The notes under the pieces are model-generated. The model ran no database searches. It was not told where the DNA came from and saw only the letters and a list, made by a program, of their open reading frames with translations. Below, piece after piece: positions 8,205 to 55,240 of a stretch of 64,000 bases of DNA. The translations under genes were made by a program, and so were the position numbers. Source of the DNA: Tannerella serpentiformis. GTDB taxonomy: Bacteria; Bacteroidota; Bacteroidia; Bacteroidales; Tannerellaceae. Location: positions 1,054,001-1,118,000 of the forward strand of contig NZ_CP028365.1 of the NCBI RefSeq assembly GCF_003033925.1, read 5' to 3'. Each line of letters starts with the position of its first letter. Position 1 is the stretch's first letter.

Positions 8205-8525
8205 TGGAAACGCTTGCAGAAGTCCTGCAAAGGCCATTTTCTCCATTTTGACGCTTGCAGAAGTCCTGCAAAGGCCATTTTCTCCATTTTGACGCTTGCA
8301 GAAGTTCTGCAAAGGCCATTTTCTCCATTTTGACGTTTGCAGAAGTTCTGCAAAGGCCATTTTCTCCTTTTTGGCGTTTGCAGAAGTCCTGCAAAAGCCA
8401 TTTTCTCCATTTTGACGTTTGCAGAAGTTCTGCAAAGGCCATTTTCTCCTTTTTGGTGTTTGCAGAAGTCCTGCAAAAGTCATTTTCTCCATTTTGACGT
8501 TTGCAGAAGTTCTGCAAAGACCTTC
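8205..8525. repeat. Array B: eight 41-bp tandem repeats with TTGCAGAAGTYCTGCAAA core
   Basis: Eight units of 41 bp contain the dyad TTGCAGAAGTTCTGCAAA followed by GGCCATTTTCTCCATTTTGACG-like spacer. Units differ at a few positions (CTCC followed by ATTTTGA or TTTTTGG). As 41 is not a multiple of three, the array is open in all three minus frames, which explains several long but meaningless reading frames. It fills the gap between the divergent dehydrogenase and T9SS plug genes. The rest of 8043-8629 shows no gene. Confidence 0.95.
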
Positions 8526-10413: not shown

Positions 10414-12693
10414 TTAATCAGGTAGCACCATGATCCACTGTTTCATGGTGTCGACGTCGAGGACACCGTAGGCAAAGCCTTTGCGGGTGAGCGAGGCGGG
10501 GAGTGTCTCGTCGTACTTGTCGAAGATGGGTATCTCGTTGGGGTAAAGGAGATCCATCGGGTCGAGCGGACGGGCGATCTCTTCGCGCAGGATACGATAG
10601 AAGTCCGCCGAGGGGACTTGCATGGTGAAGCGCATGTAGTACGGCCGGAAGGAGTCGAAGTCTTTCGACAGGCCAAGGTGCGTGGCACAACGCAGGCGGA
10701 GGAAGCGCTCGAGAGCCAGGAAGGCGTAGCTGCCAAGCCAAGGGGTGAGGCTGTACATATCGCCACCGAGCGGGACGAGCGGACGGAGGCCAAGGCCAGC
10801 GCGGGCAGCCAAGCGACGGGTGTCGGCCAAACGAGCGACAGCGTTGGGCAGGAGGTAAGCGTAGCTATCCGTCTGGAGAAGCAGGAGGCGCATGCGCTCG
10901 AGCACCCGGTTGTCGATGTCGCCCGGTTCCTCGCCAAAGTAGGCGTGAACGACGCCGCCGACACGATGGCAATAGACGATGTGGTGCTTATAGTCCACCT
11001 CCTCCACCTCCCAGACGTGTCCGGCGATGGCAATCTTGCTCATCACGGGCGGCGGCTTGACGATGGTACCAAGCTCCTCGGAATCGCAGCGGACGGTGTA
11101 TTCCTCATTCTCACGAAAGACGGCGTAGAACTTATAGTCGTTGACGACACGCTCGCCAGCCAAACCGATAAGGAGTCCACCGCGGTCGGTGCGCTGGATG
11201 TGGTCGATCTCGAGCAGGTGGAGGAGCAGGGTGCGGAAGTCGTCCTGCGAAACATTGCGAAAGGGCGGCAGCGTCAAGACACGCGCAGCCAGCTCGGGCG
11301 GCAACATCTCGCCACCAGACGCCAGCGTGGCCATCGTCTGATGATAGAGCAGACTGTAGGGCAATCGGCGTTTGTGCGGCGCCTCGACCCAGCGATCCTC
11401 CAGATAGAGCTGCACCACAGCAATGCCTTGGAGCAACTCCCAAGGTATCGTCTCCGGGAGCAGAGCGCGCGGCTCCGTGTGATTCTCCCGCATGACGAAC
11501 CACATTTCGGCTGGTGCTCCCCTGCGACCCGTACGCCCCATGCGCTGGAGGAAGGAAGAAACGGTGGCGGGAGCATCGATCTGGAAAGCGCGTTCAAGCC
11601 GACCGATGTCAATGCCTAACTCCAGCGTAGACGTGGTGCAGACCGTCAGCGCCGCCTCCGATTGTCGCATGCGCTCTTCGGCCTGGCGACGGATGGAATA
11701 AGAGAGGTTGCCGTGGTGGATCAGGAAGCGATCGGGCTCGTGACGCGCCTCGCAATAGCGGCGCAGTGTGGCCGTGACCGTCTCACACTCCTCGCGGGAG
11801 TTGGAAAAGATGAGGCACTTGCGACCGCGCGTATGCTCAAAGATGTAGGCCAGTCCGGGGTCGGCCACCACGGGCGCTGTGTCCGTGGGCTGTTCGTCAA
11901 CGGGGAGCAGGTCAGCCGTGCTGTCCGACACTTCTACCGCAGGCTTCGGCGCAGAATCGGCCGTCGACTGATCCGTATCGGTCGCCTGCGGACCGTTATT
12001 GAAGAAGTGCTGCATGGATAGGCGCCACTTGATCGGCGTGCTCTGTATGCGGGGAATGATGGTGCGCCGTTTCGTGCCTGCGGCAAGGAACTCCCCGACT
12101 GAATCGGGATCGCCCACCGTGGCCGACAGTCCGACGCGCCGCGGGTTGACCCCAGCCGCACGCGAGAGTCGCTCGATGAGACAGAGCGCCTGCCCACCAC
12201 GATCGCCACGCAGGAAGGCGTGGATCTCATCGATGACGATGAAGCGCAGATCGCCAAAGAGGGAGGCCACGTGTGCGTGGCGGTTGAAAAGCATGGCCTC
12301 GAGCGATTCGGGCGTAATCTGAAGGATGCCCGATGGGCGGCGCATGAGTCGCTTCTTCTCTCGGTCGGAGACGTCGCCATGCCAATGCCAGACCGGGATG
12401 TTGCATTCGGCACAGACGTCGTTGAGGCGCAAGAATTGGTCGTTGATGAGGGCCTTGAGCGGCGCGATGTAAAGGCAACCGATGGAGGTCGGAGGCTGCT
12501 CTTGCATGAGCGTGATGATGGGGAAGAGGGCTGCCTCCGTCTTACCGGAGGCGGTGGAAGCGCAGAGCAACAGGTGGGCGTCGGTGCCAAAGAGCACGTC
12601 ACCAGCAGCCGACTGTACGGCGCGGAGCGTGTCCCAGCCGCTGCGGTAGATGTAGTCGCGAATGGCTGGGGAATAGCGAGCGTAGACGTCCAT
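10414..12693 (-). CDS. Lhr-like superfamily 2 DEAD/DEAH helicase (BrxHI-like)
   Basis: This 759-residue helicase has an N-terminal Q-like region, Walker A ASTASGKT (residues 45-52), motif Ia APLKALINDQ, Walker B DEIH (155-158), motif III SAT (190-192), TSTLELGIDIGRL (about 354-366) and motif VI QRMGRTGRRG (383-392). A Lhr-like C-terminal region of about 360 residues follows, reading RVLTLPPFRNVSQDDFRTLLLHLLEIDHIQ. Between the two RecA lobes is an unusual acidic, low-complexity linker (about 232-280, rich in D, T, A and P). Proteins of this type (BrxHI) occur with BrxD-like ATPases in BREX-related islands. It starts 3 bases after the ATPase gene stop and is the last gene of the operon. No nuclease domain is visible, so it is expected to be a DNA translocase or helicase. 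Confidence 0.88.
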   Translation of the reverse strand: MDVYARYSPAIRDYIYRSGWDTLRAVQSAAGDVLFGTDAHLLLCASTASGKTEAALFPIITLMQEQPPTSIGCLYIAPLKALINDQFLRLNDVCAECNIPVWHWHGDVSDREKKRLMRRPSGILQITPESLEAMLFNRHAHVASLFGDLRFIVIDEIHAFLRGDRGGQALCLIERLSRAAGVNPRRVGLSATVGDPDSVGEFLAAGTKRRTIIPRIQSTPIKWRLSMQHFFNNGPQATDTDQSTADSAPKPAVEVSDSTADLLPVDEQPTDTAPVVADPGLAYIFEHTRGRKCLIFSNSREECETVTATLRRYCEARHEPDRFLIHHGNLSYSIRRQAEERMRQSEAALTVCTTSTLELGIDIGRLERAFQIDAPATVSSFLQRMGRTGRRGAPAEMWFVMRENHTEPRALLPETIPWELLQGIAVVQLYLEDRWVEAPHKRRLPYSLLYHQTMATLASGGEMLPPELAARVLTLPPFRNVSQDDFRTLLLHLLEIDHIQRTDRGGLLIGLAGERVVNDYKFYAVFRENEEYTVRCDSEELGTIVKPPPVMSKIAIAGHVWEVEEVDYKHHIVYCHRVGGVVHAYFGEEPGDIDNRVLERMRLLLLQTDSYAYLLPNAVARLADTRRLAARAGLGLRPLVPLGGDMYSLTPWLGSYAFLALERFLRLRCATHLGLSKDFDSFRPYYMRFTMQVPSADFYRILREEIARPLDPMDLLYPNEIPIFDKYDETLPASLTRKGFAYGVLDVDTMKQWIMVLPD

Positions 12694-12696
12694 ACG

Positions 12697-14037
12697 TTAC
12701 AGGGTAAACTCGGCAAATTCGGCGTCGATGTCCTTCTCCTCCAGCTCGGGTTTGGCATAGTTGAAAGTCTCGGACTGTAGAAGACTGTCCAGCGTCAAGT
12801 CGGCATGCGTAAAGAGCAAATCGAGCAACTCGATAAAGTCGCGGATCACTTCACGGGGCGTGATGTGCGTATCAGCGCCAATGCGGGCGTACTCGGTGCG
12901 AATGAAGGCCACGAGATCGTCGTCCGTGAGCCGCGGCTCATACTCGTACAATCCGGCGTGAATGAGGGCGATCTTCTCCGTGAGCACAGTCATCTCTTCC
13001 GCCGTCAGCGGCCGCAGCTTGATGACGGGCGCAAGGAGATCCGACACGCCCTGTTCACGCGTGAATTTGCCCTCTTGTAGACGCGACCGGAGCGCCTCGT
13101 AGCTGTATAGCCCGCGGCGAGGATCAGCGATGCTCTGCGGGGTGCCACTCATCAGTGTGCCGATGTATCGCGCTTTGCCTTGCAGGGCATCGTTGTACAT
13201 AGCCAGCAGCTTCTCGTAGTTGTACTGGCGGGCTATGCTGTTGGGGATCTTGTAGAGGTTCACCAGCTCATCCACGAGGATGATCAGGCCGCTGTAACCC
13301 GCGCTGTGGAAGAAGAAGGCGAAGAGCTTGAGGTAGTCGTACCAGTTGTCGTCCGTGATGGCCACGTTCACACCCAGATCGGCGCGCGCCTCGGACTTAT
13401 TGGCGTATTCTCCGCGGAACCAGTTCAACACCTTCCCCTTCAGCTCGTCGTCACCCTCGGCAAAGGCACGATAGTAAAGGCTGAGCAGACGGGCAAAGTC
13501 GAAGCCGTGCACCAAGTCGTGCATCGTGCGCACCACAGCGAAGATCTGTTGCTCTACACGCTCCGCAAACTCCGGGCTATCCGTGCTGCAGCCCGCCGTT
13601 TCAGCCGTCTGCATCTGCACCGTGCTGATCCATCGATCAAGCACATTGGCCAGCGCTCCACCCTCGGGCTGCGTCTTTATGCTGAGGTTCTTGATCAGTT
13701 CGCGATACGTTGCCAAGCCCTGTCCCTGATTGCCATAAAGGCGTCGCTCAGGCGAGAGGTCGGCGTCCATCACCACAAAATTTCGGTCCATCACATAGTT
13801 GCGCATCGTCTGCAGCAGGAAGGACTTCCCGCTGCCATAGTTCCCCGCGATGAAGCGGAACGCTGCGCCGCCCTCGCTGACAATATCTACATCGCGGAGC
13901 AGCGCCTCGATCTCTTGCCTTCGCCCCACCGTGATGTAGGGCAGTCCCACGCGAGGCACCACGCCTCCCTTGAGTGAGTTCACAACCGTCTGCGCTATGC
14001 GCCGCGGAATCTTCGTCGGTTTGTTATCCATATTCAT
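12697..14037 (-). CDS. BREX-type ATP-binding protein (DUF2791 / BrxD-like)
   Basis: This 446-residue AAA-type ATPase begins with IPRRIAQTVVNSLKGGVVPRVGLPYITVGRRQEIEALL, the hallmark entry of the DUF2791/BrxD family. It carries Walker A GNYGSGKS (65-72), a following FVVMDADLSPERRLYG strand, and Walker B LIILVDELVNL with the acidic pair at 256-257. Near residue 300 lies a GTLMSGTPQ sensor-like segment followed by GLYSYEALRSRL. The C-terminal part is helical. It has no membrane segment. It is the middle gene of the operon TerB-type protein, ATPase, helicase, and lies 3 bases from the helicase. BrxD and BrxHI are paired in some BREX types, but no PglX, PglZ or BrxA/B is present here. Confidence 0.88.
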   Translation of the reverse strand: MNMDNKPTKIPRRIAQTVVNSLKGGVVPRVGLPYITVGRRQEIEALLRDVDIVSEGGAAFRFIAGNYGSGKSFLLQTMRNYVMDRNFVVMDADLSPERRLYGNQGQGLATYRELIKNLSIKTQPEGGALANVLDRWISTVQMQTAETAGCSTDSPEFAERVEQQIFAVVRTMHDLVHGFDFARLLSLYYRAFAEGDDELKGKVLNWFRGEYANKSEARADLGVNVAITDDNWYDYLKLFAFFFHSAGYSGLIILVDELVNLYKIPNSIARQYNYEKLLAMYNDALQGKARYIGTLMSGTPQSIADPRRGLYSYEALRSRLQEGKFTREQGVSDLLAPVIKLRPLTAEEMTVLTEKIALIHAGLYEYEPRLTDDDLVAFIRTEYARIGADTHITPREVIRDFIELLDLLFTHADLTLDSLLQSETFNYAKPELEEKDIDAEFAEFTL

Positions 14038-14060
14038 GTAAGTAGTTAGAGTTAGAAGTG

Positions 14061-14180
14061 CTCGTGGTCATAGCAAGCAGCCCTTCGGGGCCGTCTTGCC
14101 TGTCCCCGTAAAATAGGTAGCTCGTGGTCATAGCAAGCAGTCCTTCGGGGCCGTCTTGCCTGTGCCCATAATATAATAGG
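14061..14180. repeat. Two tandem 60-bp repeats with a TTCG hairpin, between TerB-type and ATPase genes
   Basis: The sequence CTCGTGGTCATAGCAAGCAG, then (C/T)CCTTCGGGGCCGTCTTGCCTG and an A/T-rich tail, occurs twice with a 60-bp period. GCCC-TTCG-GGGC in the plus-strand reading forms a tight tetraloop hairpin in copy 1. Copy 2 has one stem change (GTCC), which leaves a G-T wobble. Both lie in the 160-bp gap inside the operon. Confidence 0.8.
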
Positions 14181-14197
14181 TAAGAAGTGCGGGCTTC

Positions 14198-15796
14198 TCA
14201 TATCCTGCGAACCAAGTCGTCCAGATAATCGTCGATCACCTCCGGCCCGTTTCCACGGTCGGCAATGACGACGTCCTGCACCGCCTCCATCATTTTCTCG
14301 TTAATCCCATCCACCATCACGCCCATAGGCACACGGATGTCGCGCAGATAACCCGCCCAGTCGCCCCCCTCAATCAGCAGATGCAGGAAGCGTCGCTCTT
14401 GATCGGTAAAGGCGGACACTGCCGCAGGCTCCGGTTCAGGCGACGGCTGAGGGATCGGTTCAGGCGACGGCGTATGCGTCACCGCCGTCTCCGCGCGATC
14501 ATCGTCCGTCAATAGCGCCTCACGGACCACGTCGGCATCGCTGCGTATCCGGTCAAACCGCGAACGATCCACCTTCACCGCGTCGAGCTTAGCCTGCCGC
14601 TCAGCCTCCTGCTGTTCGGCCCAGTAACGCTCCACCTCCCTTTCGACCACCGCCTCCAGCGTCCGGTCGTTGATGCGCTTCGTGAGCTTGCCCTCCCCCT
14701 TCATCCTTGCTCGCAGCTGCCGATCCATCTCTTGCATCAGCCGCCCGAGCACCTCGCCTCGCCTCTCGCCATCCAGCGCGTTGCAAAACGTCTCCTTCGT
14801 CCATGATCCCTTGATGCAAGTGAAATAGCGGTTCTCCGTGAACGGATAATAGCGCTTGCGATAAGGGTAGCGACGATAGAAGACAGCCGAGTAGAACATC
14901 GGCCTGGGCAGATACTTCCGCAGGCCCACCAGCACACGGCGGATCGACTGCCCATAGCGCTCCTCGAGGATCGGCGCCGCCTTCCGGATAATGCGCCCCC
15001 CGATCGTTGTCACCAGCTCCTCGTGCCGCTTGTAGAGTCGTGAGTCCTTGATGTGATACGCCGAGAGCGGCGCCACGGCCTCAAACAGCTCCACGTCGTC
15101 CGAGTCATCCAGATTCTCCAGCACTTCCACCGCCACGTCCTCCGCTTGCTCCTCAGCGAAATACGTCTCCGCCATGTCGATCATCCCGTAAAACGTGACG
15201 TAATCCTTCAGCCATTCCTTCATATTCCGCAGCAGTTTCGCGTCCAACGGGCCATAATTGTCGCGGATCTGTTCGAGCTTCTTCAGCCCATCGTCCGGCA
15301 GCCATGTACCCACCTGCATCAGCAGCTCGTAGACGTAGACATAGACGTACGATATCGAAATATTCTGGGGGTATTCGCCGCGGCGCCACCCCGCCCGTAG
15401 CGTGAAATAGCTGCGCATCTGCGCCAAGTTCATATCTTGGTAAACAGGGTTGTAAGCGAAAAAGAGCTCGATCCTCGACACGTTGTCTTCGCAATCGGAA
15501 GCGTAGATGGCTTGGCTGTAGAAATCGCGGTTACGCGTCGGTGACCACTGTGTCCGTCGGCAGATTCGCCACAGCTCAAGGATCTTCTCCGGCGCCTTAT
15601 TCACATCCTCCAGACTGGGCATCTCGAGTCCCGGAGTCCACGACACGCTCCCCAGCATTCGCCCCACCTCCTGCTGCACCTCCTCCAAAATCGCGGCCCG
15701 CTTTTTTGATTCCTCTTCGGTCAACGCGTTTTCCGGCACCGTTTCTTGCGGTAGCGGCTGATCCGTGTAATAATTTCCGTCTGAATACTCGTCCAT
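14198..15796 (-). CDS. TerB_N / TerB_C domain protein
   Basis: This 532-residue soluble protein leads the three-gene operon. After an acidic tail, residues about 70-260 match the TerB_N pattern: RDFYSQAIYASDCEDNVSR, AYNPVYQDMNLAQMRSYFTLRAGWRRGEYPQN and the helical YVYVYVYELLMQVG. The C-terminal 75 residues match TerB_C: TDQERRFLHLLIEGGDW, then MGVMVDGINEKMMEAVQDVVI and GPEVIDDYLDDLV. A charged linker with two near-identical SPEPIPQPSPEPEP stretches joins them. TerB domains are associated with Ter stress-response systems and are thought to bind metals or membranes. Linkage to a BrxD-like ATPase and Lhr-like helicase points to a DNA-linked stress or defence function. That is inference. Confidence 0.85.
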   Translation of the reverse strand: MDEYSDGNYYTDQPLPQETVPENALTEEESKKRAAILEEVQQEVGRMLGSVSWTPGLEMPSLEDVNKAPEKILELWRICRRTQWSPTRNRDFYSQAIYASDCEDNVSRIELFFAYNPVYQDMNLAQMRSYFTLRAGWRRGEYPQNISISYVYVYVYELLMQVGTWLPDDGLKKLEQIRDNYGPLDAKLLRNMKEWLKDYVTFYGMIDMAETYFAEEQAEDVAVEVLENLDDSDDVELFEAVAPLSAYHIKDSRLYKRHEELVTTIGGRIIRKAAPILEERYGQSIRRVLVGLRKYLPRPMFYSAVFYRRYPYRKRYYPFTENRYFTCIKGSWTKETFCNALDGERRGEVLGRLMQEMDRQLRARMKGEGKLTKRINDRTLEAVVEREVERYWAEQQEAERQAKLDAVKVDRSRFDRIRSDADVVREALLTDDDRAETAVTHTPSPEPIPQPSPEPEPAAVSAFTDQERRFLHLLIEGGDWAGYLRDIRVPMGVMVDGINEKMMEAVQDVVIADRGNGPEVIDDYLDDLVRRI

Positions 15797-15904
15797 TTCT
15801 TACCCTTTTCGGATGATCGGCGCAAAAATAAGCCGGAAATCTCCTCCGCGAGGTTTCGGTCAGCCTTTCGCCCCCGGCTTTCGACCTCTCCGTCATTTTT
15901 CAAC

Positions 15905-16600
15905 TTCTTCCTGCCTCCACAAGCATAAGGAAGGATGGCTTTACGCTTCTTCGTGACATCAGGAAGATATCATCATCAAGTATCCACACACAAATCCACG
16001 CACGACGATATGAAAACATAATCATCAGCTCACCACGCCACCCACATCCTGTCTATCCTCATTGTCATCATATCAAAGTGCATGCACATGATAAAGAACA
16101 ATACGCAAATTAAATCGTGCCATCATGTCATAGAGAACATCCTCACAAATAGAGATGATCCTGACCGCACAAATTCATATAGATAATTAGAAACAATACT
16201 ACGTGCCATCATCATCCTATGAATAACACGCTATCAATCCATCACCACCACACAAATGAATGTCACATTATGTATAAATAGATCGTGCATGGACTTTTAT
16301 ATGAAAATATGATTTACGGCATTCTGTGCACACATGTAAATACAAACACAATCATATCACATCATCCCGTACGCCATATTACAATAGAAATAGGCAGAAA
16401 ACACATCCTGCTCACACAAATTATAGGCGACATAGAGAGATAGACTCCATCATGCAGTCACGAAACATAGAAAAAAGCGGCGCCGTGTCCTCGATCATCC
16501 ATAAAGGCGACGCGCTGTCCTCCGACACAGCTTTGCAGGTTGATTCTTCGCCCTCCACATCGCGGTTGGCCTCTGTGCACACGGTAGCAAGGCTCAGCCA
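15905..16600. other. AT-rich, C-rich/G-poor stretch without recognisable gene
   Basis: This approximately 700-base stretch differs sharply from the GC-rich neighbours. The plus strand is rich in A, C and T with few G, full of CATCAT, CACAAAT and ATCATC words. Short plus and minus reading frames exist (up to 122 codons) but none shows a protein-like pattern or ribosome site. Nothing is called in it. It lies upstream of the TerB operon and could hold its promoter or be the remnant of a transferred sequence. Confidence 0.6.
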
Positions 16601-16611
16601 GATTTCCGGCA

Positions 16612-16654
16612 TAAAAAAACCTTCCGCCTCTCCCATCAAGGAAAAGCGAAAGGT
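16612..16654 (-). terminator. Terminator of the RRM gene
   Basis: On the minus strand ACCTTTCGC / GCGGAAGGT (one G-T wobble) forms a stem with an 18-base loop, followed by seven T residues. It lies about 80 bases beyond the RRM gene stop. Confidence 0.7.
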
Positions 16655-53097: not shown

Positions 53098-54486
53098 CTA
53101 CTTCCCGATGCAGAACTTGGAGAAGATGTTGGCGAGCACCTCGTCGGTGACGATCTCGCCGCCGGTGATCTCGCCGAGCGCGTGGAGGCAGTCGCGCAGA
53201 TCCTCCGCGAGCAGATCGCCCGGCAAACCGTCGCTGAGTCCCGCCAGTACGCGTCGGATGGCCTCGCCTGCGCGGCAGAGCGCCTCGTAGTGGCGCACGT
53301 TGGTGACGATCACGTCGTGCGTGCCCACCGTAAGCGTATCGGCCAGCTCGACGATCCGCTGCTTCACACGCTCGATGTCGGCCGGCTCGCGGCAAGAGAT
53401 GTGGATCGCCTGCACGTTGTCCGTCGTGTGGATCGGGCTACGGCGGGCCAGATCGTTCTTCGTGCCGACCATCAGCACGGGCTTCTCGTAGCGCCGCAGC
53501 CAGCGGCTGGCCTCGAGCCAATCGTCGGCCGTGCTGTCGGTCAGGTCGAGGAGGTAAAGGATGATGGCGGCCTGATCGGCCTTTTCGAAGCTACGAAGGA
53601 TGCCGATCTCCTCGATGCGGTCCGTCGTGCGATCGCGTAAACCGGCGGTGTCGATGAAGCGGAAAAGTCGGCCGTCGAGGGTGAGTGTCTCCTCGATCGT
53701 GTCGCGCGTTGTGCCGGGGATGTCTGAGACGATGGCGCGCTCCTCGTTGAGCAGCCCGTTCAGCAGCGTCGACTTGCCCACGTTTGGTCGGCCGATAATG
53801 GCCACAGGCAACCCGTGTCGGAGTGCATTGCCGGCGGCGAACGAGGCTGCCAAGGTGTCGATGCGTCGGGCGATGCGATCAGCCAGTTCGCCAAGGCGTG
53901 TGCGGTCAGCAAACTCCAGCTCCTCGTGATCGCCAAAGTCCAGCTCCAGTTCCACGAGCGAGGCAAATTCGAGCAACTGTGCGCGTAGCGTGGCCAATTC
54001 GTCGGAGAATCCGCCACGCATTTGGTTCATCGCCACGCGATGCATACCGGCCGAAGTCGATGCGATCAGGTCGGCCACAGCCTCCGCCTGCGAGAGATCC
54101 ATACGCCCATTGAGGAAGGCGCGTCGGGTGAACTCGCCCGGTGCGGCAGCGCGCGCTCCGCCGTCGATGAGCCATTCAAGGAGGCGTTGTTGGATGAAGG
54201 TCGAGCCGTGGCAAGACAGCTCCACGGTGTCCTCACCGGTGAACGAATGCGGGGCACGGAAGACGGTAGCCACAGCCTCGTCGAGCAGTTCGCCATCGCG
54301 GACAAGACGGCCGAAGGTGGCCGTATGCGAGCGACGCTCGGCGAGCGGTACACCCGAGCGAGGTTGGAAAAAACGGTCGCAAAGCGTGACCGCCTCCGGT
54401 CCGGAGACGCGCACGATGGCCAACGCGCCACTTCCCGCAGGCGTGGACAAGGCGCAGATGGTGGAGAAATCGAGGTGGGTGTTCAT
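53098..54486 (-). CDS. mnmE: tRNA modification GTPase MnmE
   Basis: MnmE with MnmG modifies the wobble uridine of certain tRNAs. The 462-residue protein starts MNTHLDFSTICALSTPAGSGALAIVRVSGPEA, the tetrahydrofolate-binding domain. The GTPase domain has GRPNVGKSTLLNG, DTAGLRD and GTKNDL, and the C-terminus ends CIGK with the catalytic Cys, as in all MnmE. ATG at 54486 is chosen over 54504 because a TACCTTTG element at 54514-54507 would start transcription at or inside the 54504 codon. The very long upstream frame is repeat sequence. It is convergent with clpB. Confidence 0.95.
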   Translation of the reverse strand: MNTHLDFSTICALSTPAGSGALAIVRVSGPEAVTLCDRFFQPRSGVPLAERRSHTATFGRLVRDGELLDEAVATVFRAPHSFTGEDTVELSCHGSTFIQQRLLEWLIDGGARAAAPGEFTRRAFLNGRMDLSQAEAVADLIASTSAGMHRVAMNQMRGGFSDELATLRAQLLEFASLVELELDFGDHEELEFADRTRLGELADRIARRIDTLAASFAAGNALRHGLPVAIIGRPNVGKSTLLNGLLNEERAIVSDIPGTTRDTIEETLTLDGRLFRFIDTAGLRDRTTDRIEEIGILRSFEKADQAAIILYLLDLTDSTADDWLEASRWLRRYEKPVLMVGTKNDLARRSPIHTTDNVQAIHISCREPADIERVKQRIVELADTLTVGTHDVIVTNVRHYEALCRAGEAIRRVLAGLSDGLPGDLLAEDLRDCLHALGEITGGEIVTDEVLANIFSKFCIGK

Positions 54487-54506
54487 AAGAGGATATTGTT
54501 TCATGG

Positions 54507-54514
54507 CAAAGGTA
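54507..54514 (-). promoter_or_regulatory. -7 element of mnmE, deciding its start
   Basis: Minus strand TACCTTTG lies 3 bases before the upstream ATG at 54504. Transcription should start near 54500, which leaves ATG 54486 as the usable start. Confidence 0.55.
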
Positions 54515-54589
54515 GCCCCCGATATAGAAACCCCATCGGGTGCTTGTCGCACTATTGCCTCTGTTTTTCGCCCGCCACGAAGTCCATTT

Positions 54590-54985
54590 GCCCGAAAACC
54601 TCGCACAATCACTCCAACGGGAATCGTGTGGGCCGAAAGACTCGCACAAACACTCCACCGGAAAGTCTGTGGGGCGAAAACCTTGCACAATCGCCCCAAC
54701 GGAAAGTCTGCGGGCCGAAAACCTCGCACAATCGCCCCAACGAAAAGGTTGTCGGCCGAAAACCTCGCACTATCGCTCCAACGGAAAGTCTGTGGAGCGA
54801 AAGACTCGCACAATCGCCCCAACGGAAAGTCTGTGGCCTGAAAACCTCGCACAATCGGCCCAACGAGACGGTTTTGGGGCGAAATACTTGCTCAATCGCT
54901 TGCCACGAAAGTGTTTGGGCCGGTTGTCCGCCGCAGGCTTTCCGTGATTTTATGGCTGAGCCACAGCCTGAGGCTTTCGGTCGCT
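54590..54985 (-). repeat. Array E: eight 41-bp units plus a 90-bp flank, left arm of an inverted repeat pair
   Basis: Eight units of 41 bp start near 54600, 54640, 54682, 54723, 54764, 54805, 54846 and 54887, reading CTCGCACAATCGCCCCAACG then GAAAGTCTGTGGGCCGAAAA. The last is followed by a unique flank (GAAAGTGTTTGGGCCGGTTG and TCCGCCGCAGG, then TGATTTTATGG and CACAGCCTGAGGCTTTC). Array and flank recur in inverted orientation at 57878-58290. It lies upstream of mnmE. No gene is seen between 54600 and 55373. Confidence 0.9.
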
Positions 54986-55240
54986 GTTTCGGAAAGCGAT
55001 GGCCGACCGTCGGCTTGGGGTTGCCTACGCGGTCGGTGATCCAAGACCTTCGGCGAGAGATGCTCCCGTTTTGTGATCCACCATAACCTTCAGAAAAGTG
55101 CGGCTCCGTTTTTTTGATCTTCCCAAAGCCTGAGGCAATGGTGCCCCACCTATGTCTATCCTCCCAAAGCCTAAAGCGGATGGCCCCTTCCGTCGGTGGC
55201 GAAGTGCAACCTCGGGCTGCAGGCTATTTGCGGGCGCGTC

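Follow-up and report, generated by a model that had tools for sequence, protein, structure and literature searches.

A predicted Shango (SngABC) operon with a simplified SngA in Tannerella serpentiformis

The stretch of DNA analysed here, called the window (64,000 nucleotides of Tannerella serpentiformis, contig NZ_CP028365.1, positions 1,054,001 to 1,118,000), encodes a three-gene operon which, by its sequence, is almost certainly a Shango (SngABC) anti-phage system. Shango is a named, already described system, and the window operon is a new example of it with a simpler SngA than many copies have. The genes lie on one strand (minus) in the order A-B-C, namely sngA (14198..15796; 532 residues), sngB (12697..14037; 446 residues) and sngC (10414..12693; 759 residues), with gaps of 160 bases (A-B) and 3 bases (B-C); the open reading frames (ORFs) thus confirm the three minus-strand genes of these lengths, the last two 3 bases apart, that an earlier note on this DNA had described. 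The PADLOC models of the three Shango proteins match the respective products almost from end to end: PDLC03958 matches SngA (9.1e-62, 208 bits, model positions 63-523 of 528), PDLC03959 matches SngB (6.6e-185, 613 bits, 4-439 of 439) and PDLC03960 matches SngC (4.1e-263, 873 bits, 5-717 of 720). The earlier note had read the locus as a DNA-surveillance or defence module. What stands of this is a self-contained unit of three genes of defence type, among them a BrxD-like ATPase and a helicase akin to BrxHI; the note had missed the named system, and the operon appears to be Shango and not an undescribed offshoot of bacteriophage exclusion (BREX). The Shango of Pseudomonas aeruginosa PA14 likewise comprises a TerB-like protein (PA14_RS11735), an ATPase (11740) and a helicase (11745) in the same order (PMC10250203), where the likeness of the window operon to the PA14 and Escherichia coli copies rests on gene kinds, gene order and the PADLOC models, not on direct alignment. 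In that study, PA14 Shango lowers plating 10-100-fold for many, not all, phages and protects liquid cultures, while E. coli Shango is cited as having a modest effect on two phages (PMC10250203). Defence is quite probably also the present role of the window operon.

SngA contains TerB_N (PF13208; 6.8e-21, residues 87-280) and TerB_C (PF15615; 4.2e-15, residues 394-528). SngB contains the BrxC_BrxD domain (PF10923; 5.1e-165, residues 10-422), which we take to be the former DUF2791, together with intact Walker A (GNYGSGKS; 65) and Walker B (LIILVDE; 251) motifs located by pattern in columns conserved among its relatives. Pfam and pattern searches therefore agree with the earlier assignment of TerB_N, TerB_C and a DUF2791-type ATPase with Walker motifs. 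The profile search against solved structures returned no convincing match for SngA or SngB, the weak ones standing at 0.05-0.09.

SngC is a superfamily 2 (SF2) helicase related to BrxHI and Lhr, with Pfam matches to DEAD (8.7e-27) and Helicase_C (2.5e-17). Motifs Ia, Ib, II (DEIH; 155), III (SAT; 190), IV, V and VI (QRMGRTGR; 383) were found by pattern, at positions that the relatives conserve, the motif names being those we take to apply, while the pattern for motif I came back empty, yet TASGKT reads at residues 47-52, where T47, G50, K51 and T52 are invariant in 28 aligned helicases; the earlier statement that all SF2 motifs are present thus holds by pattern for Ia to VI and by reading for motif I. 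In a profile search of solved structures, SngC comes nearest to 5v9x and 7lhl, both titled ATP-dependent DNA helicase and presumably Lhr proteins. The former label 'Lhr-like' is borne out as to kinship and not as to the Lhr winged helix (PF19306), whose model scores 12.2 bits on SngC against a cut-off of 27; SngC thus has its nearest structures among presumed Lhr proteins, but differs from Lhr and Lhr-like SF2 helicases in that the winged-helix cut-off is not reached and in its partnership with SngB. In a published tree of defence helicases the Shango helicase groups with BrxHI, DruE and DpdJ (PMC12278908). No nuclease domain exceeds its Pfam cut-off in SngA, SngB or SngC, and under the cut-off SngC matches the C-terminal part of a Cas3-like helicase and SngB a zeta-toxin P-loop.

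The sng operon is accessory and patchily distributed. Within the family, the window SngA protein as query matches 2 of 123 genomes, its own and one of another genus with a weak C-terminal match (7.8e-4), and SngB matches 8 of 123. SngA-like and SngC neighbours flank SngB in two genomes of other genera (G056 and G121), and five other SngB-positive genomes, three of them in the window's genus, carry a SngA-profile protein upstream and no SngC that could be found over 9-9.5 kb (G090 and G105) or 3.3-4.3 kb (the other three). In the genus, the 40 genomes besides the window's own yielded no complete trio, but many of them are incomplete (13 of all 41 reach at least 90% completeness with no more than 5% contamination). 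At the level of the order, 6 of 392 genomes have a match to the SngA model (0 of 14 in the control set), so the gene is not a core locus of the order; the earlier note had held that a trio syntenic as a core locus in all Bacteroidales, with no link to defence islands, would refute its defence reading, which thus escapes this refutation. Three of the six genomes (G000, G125 and G173) contain the complete trio, G449 contains A and B, the final kilobase of its contig being without SngC, a SngA-like gene in G171 points away from SngB before the contig ends, and G493 has a SngA-like gene with no SngB in 19.9 kb. The SngA-like protein of the latter two genomes (L113 8921-12557 and L114 8653-10425) is 590-597 residues long (MTLSDLTKYAEQY...). 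Across the phylum, SngB at 1e-20 matches 16 of 296 genomes (1 of 14 in the control set), and 14 of the 15 genomes other than the window's own have SngB between matches to the SngA and SngC profiles, L133 being without a SngA match.

A different arrangement occurs in the window's own genus and family, where a SngA-profile protein and a C-terminally extended SngB-like ATPase stand together with no SngC found (L146/L165 of G105, L143/L164 of G090, L142, L144 and L147). In G105 (L146) the upstream protein contains TerB_C only and scores 61 bits with the SngA model over its C-terminus; it is followed by a SngB-like ATPase (519 bits with the SngB model) bearing a bacterial PH-like C-terminal extension and then by TelA, with no helicase detected, and the third gene looks alike in G090, G111 and G003. 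This operon thus shares with the window a TerB_C protein directly before a SngB-like ATPase, but differs in the PH-like extension and in having TelA, not a helicase, as its third gene.

A scan of genome contigs for relatives gave 55 loci. In a tree of 80 SngB rows (midpoint root, several long branches, including the very long one of L133, which was kept after trimming to its last 470 residues), the window sequence pairs (support 100/99) with that of G125, a genome from a different family in the same order, at 72% identity. The two lie inside a 29-row clade (97/90) that is mainly Bacillota (Lactobacillaceae, Clostridia) and also holds single Desulfovibrio, Synergistaceae, Victivallis, planctomycete and Prevotella metagenome-assembled genomes (MAGs), a mix of phyla that fits horizontal spread, with the proviso that bins may hold stray contigs. 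All three genes are present at 23 of the 29 clade loci, the window included (L061 and L059 are cut at the contig edge), and the remaining six are L064, without SngC with about 5 kb to spare, L111, without SngC in about 1 kb, and four loci cut by contig ends. A search of 198 genomes of the phylum for a true BrxD to serve as outgroup gave none, nor did the control set give a match, so the tree contains no true BREX row. Two further arrangements were seen among the relatives. A Candidatus Hodarchaeum MAG (L093 11317-15752, an Asgard archaeal contig) encodes SngB followed by two tandem SngC-like helicases (638 and 606 bits), and Clostridia (L072, L077, L078, L080, L082, L085-L089) have SngB with or without SngC and no detected SngA, in a reading of neighbourhoods that covers all but its last five loci; the downstream genes common to L072 and L077, and those common to L085, L087 and L089, suggest a vertically kept chromosomal branch of the ATPase.

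SngB relatives also occur on 685 plasmid records, which may include true BrxD; 541 of the records are predicted conjugative, most are from Klebsiella and Salmonella, and all matches are below 60% identity. The ATPase-helicase pair was present in 7 of 7 plasmid regions opened, with an annotated TerB-domain protein upstream in 6 and, in the seventh (L135), an unannotated ORF upstream that scores 332 bits with the SngA model. SngA itself gave no match against the plasmid records at 1e-5.

The make-up of SngA, the phage records and the surroundings of the operon weigh against the reading of the locus as a Shango defence operon. The TerB core (PF05099), which a review lists for Shango (PMC10952713), is found in 0 of 24 window-clade SngA proteins at E<=0.1, the window's included, and none of the 24 carries a hydrophobic stretch near its N-terminus, scored as a 19-mer in the first 80 residues whose Kyte-Doolittle mean is 1.6 or higher, while Pfam finds TerB_N and TerB_C in all 24. 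Among 20 SngA proteins of another clade, Pfam finds TerB_C in 20, TerB_N in 12 and the TerB core in 11, and 14 have the hydrophobic stretch; the helix counts hinge on start codons, as the first possible start was used for most of these 20, and in L138 the start used is upstream of the annotated one, with which the helix would be lost. Since just 11 of the 20 have the TerB core, the core is not taken as defining Shango, and the PADLOC SngA model fits both kinds, eight SngA proteins from plasmids or other clades scoring 95-360 bits. As the 24 sequences were picked partly by likeness to the window SngA (phmmer, more than 80 bits), the counts describe the window clade and not all Shango. Window SngA thus appears slightly unusual and its clade a modest SngA subtype, differing from Shango elsewhere in having no detectable TerB core or N-terminal hydrophobic helix. 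SngB gave no match in 50,697 phage records, and no viral contig was confirmed by the patterns applied, which reach close relatives only.

The genes on either side look like housekeeping genes. By names read from the sequences, one flank encodes RecF-like, DUF721-like, dehydrogenase-like, unplaced (415 residues) and glutaredoxin-like proteins, and the other RRM, Tig (trigger factor), ClpP, ClpX and RecQ, in the same order in three relatives. PADLOC at 1e-10 finds no defence-model match in 8 of 10 flanking proteins, while the matches of RecF (mad3/AriA) and RecQ (DpdF and others, also BrxHI and SngC) are read as cross-matches within the ABC and helicase families. Codon usage and GC content at third codon positions of the sng genes resemble those of the neighbours, hence native, with no sign of recent import. 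The neighbours of close relatives (119 of 189 listed ORFs scanned) are hardly enriched at 1e-20, with mad3 in five proteins, a model that the window's own RecF also matches, and IetA, LmuB and AriA in one protein each; this window-clade scan was run without loci L056, L063, L070 and L111 and without the shorter ORFs and the largest two, and L054, L055, L068 and L113 were never in its neighbour list. In the comparison clade (120 of 200 ORFs), matches to mad3, mad2 and GajB/RTasHel were likewise read as cross-matches. A location in a defence island or hotspot, which is not strictly defining for Shango, is therefore not found at this locus, in which the window differs from Shango elsewhere; with housekeeping-like flanks, native codon usage and 8 of 10 neighbours silent in PADLOC, the genes form a lone accessory operon and not a visible island, and the island-like character claimed earlier is not upheld. 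No clean empty site was found when 41 genus genomes were searched for both flanks and three relatives read, because the glutaredoxin-like gene is on other contigs in the three relatives and the other neighbour of RRM there (CPBP-like by reading) has no match in the window's genome.

As to the mode of action, SngB, a BrxD-type AAA+ ATPase, would most likely form an oligomer which loads or activates SngC, a translocase of BrxHI/Lhr type, on invading or abnormally replicating DNA, while SngA would act through TerB_N and TerB_C as an adaptor that senses infection or restrains the SngB-SngC pair. Phage replication would be blocked through DNA translocation and remodelling, without a nuclease of the system's own. 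The helicase-loader idea has been proposed for BrxD-BrxHI (PMC12839542) and is carried over to Shango here by analogy; a 2026 review gives the mechanism of Shango as unknown (PMC12926258), and no study of it was found in the literature searched, most subscription journals lying outside its coverage. The role of SngA, the defence of its host by the window copy and the absence of a separate effector are what we infer. Shango identity and the loader/translocase working, taken together, are rather probable, an estimate which is a compromise over identity, role and mechanism, while the specific loader/translocase mechanism is put forward tentatively, at somewhat less than even chances.

Other explanations of the operon differ in what SngB and SngC would serve. 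They could be the sensor of an abortive infection system in which SngA or a recruited protein is the effector, released on abnormal DNA in the way HamB restrains HamA in Hachiman; helicase-gated effectors have this precedent (PMC12278908), and SngA is the most variable protein, a common trait of sensors and effectors: its aligned relatives share 22-35% identity with the window protein, while the wider sets give 37-70% for SngC and 39-72% for SngB. This is unlikely, as SngA has no nuclease, NADase or pore-like domain above the Pfam cut-off and window-clade SngA no N-terminal hydrophobic helix. Quite unlikely, too, is a genome-maintenance engine in which SngB-SngC would look for stalled forks and damage in the DNA of the host and confer phage resistance incidentally. 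The native codon usage of the window copy agrees with it, as do the Clostridia that have SngB with or without SngC in repeated housekeeping-looking contexts: L072 and L077 have the same two genes behind SngC, SngB is followed in L085, L087 and L089 by a common set of a lipoprotein-like gene and two others, and these rows form tight clades. However, their lack of SngA comes from a single-sequence search that may miss a divergent SngA, L072 beginning just before SngB; the trio, unlike a maintenance gene, is rare in the order and not detected complete in the other 40 genus genomes, and the Shango copy tested elsewhere is anti-phage (PMC10250203).

A Ter-type operon that answers stress or tellurite and does not serve defence is suggested by TerB_N and TerB_C in SngA and by the same-genus L146, where TelA follows the TerB_C protein and extended ATPase and no helicase is detected, but is very improbable, as the TerB core is found in 0 of 24, no TelA-, TerC- or TerD-type gene is seen among the nameable neighbours (read by eye, no search made), and Shango models match all three proteins. 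A remnant of type 2 BREX that retains BrxD and BrxHI alone can hardly be credited. Type 2 BREX (Pgl) has in common with the window an ATPase of superfamily PF10923 and a related helicase in adjacent genes (PMC12839542), and the PADLOC models BrxD (9.4e-48) and BrxHI (4.8e-119) do match. Yet the Shango models score far above them (613 against 161 bits for SngB, 873 against 397 bits for SngC), SngB reaches 163 bits with the NCBI BrxD equivalog NF033438, whose cut-off is 350, SngA is no BREX protein, and none of the 10 flanking proteins to which the scan was confined matches PglX, PglZ, PglW or BrxC. The link of the window operon with BREX thus appears to be one of kinship, not of membership.

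The gap between sngA and sngB contains a 60-bp tandem repeat (14060..14175, minus strand; 1.9 copies), whose sngB-proximal copy forms a strong predicted RNA hairpin (-23.5 kcal/mol, z -4.0) and whose other copy a weak one (z -1.7); it has no other match in its own genome. Among 36 relatives with both junctions measured, the A-B junction is -19 to +18 bases in 32 (64, 65, 322 and 481 in the others) and the B-C junction at most 34 bases in 34. The repeat may set the ratio of SngA to SngB-SngC. Upstream of sngA lies an AT-rich gap with no gene assigned (15900..16420; GC 0.388 measured over 16000-16499), so the gap and small repeats of the earlier note are real, while its island reading of them is not supported. 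The sequence TATTTTTG (15823..15830, minus strand), 34 nt before the sngA start, matches TAnnTTTG, which we take to be the Bacteroidetes -7 consensus, by sequence alone. A terminator-like hairpin with a T run (16619..16654, minus strand) stands after the RRM gene and before the sng operon; the call is weak, because 10 such sites occur in the region against 6.9 expected. Rfam gave one miRNA family, under its threshold and on both strands, which was dismissed.

Elsewhere in the window, a 41-bp unit is repeated 7.6 times (92% matches) between two genes at 8210-8519, where overlapping ORFs read as peptide repeats, and at 54022-55086, where a TrmE-like GTPase gene begins, ORFs with repeated peptide-like stretches suggest another short repeat array.

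The window's order and many Bacillota may share a soluble, TerB-core-less Shango subtype whose SngA would be unable to act membrane-anchored. SngB-SngC would then be a general DNA-translocase engine to which different TerB_N/TerB_C adaptors could be fitted. Some Clostridia would have retained the pair by itself as a surveillance unit on the chromosome, and elsewhere in the window's genus the ATPase, without its partner, would be coupled to TelA in place of a helicase; this wider proposal is possible, though doubtful. A compact Shango without TerB core or membrane anchor suggests which parts of the system may be dispensable, and its solubility would make it convenient for biochemical and structural work. 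Comparing the defence trios with the SngB (or SngB-SngC) that stands by itself on chromosomes and with the TelA-linked ATPases may offer a way to separate the engine from its adaptor.

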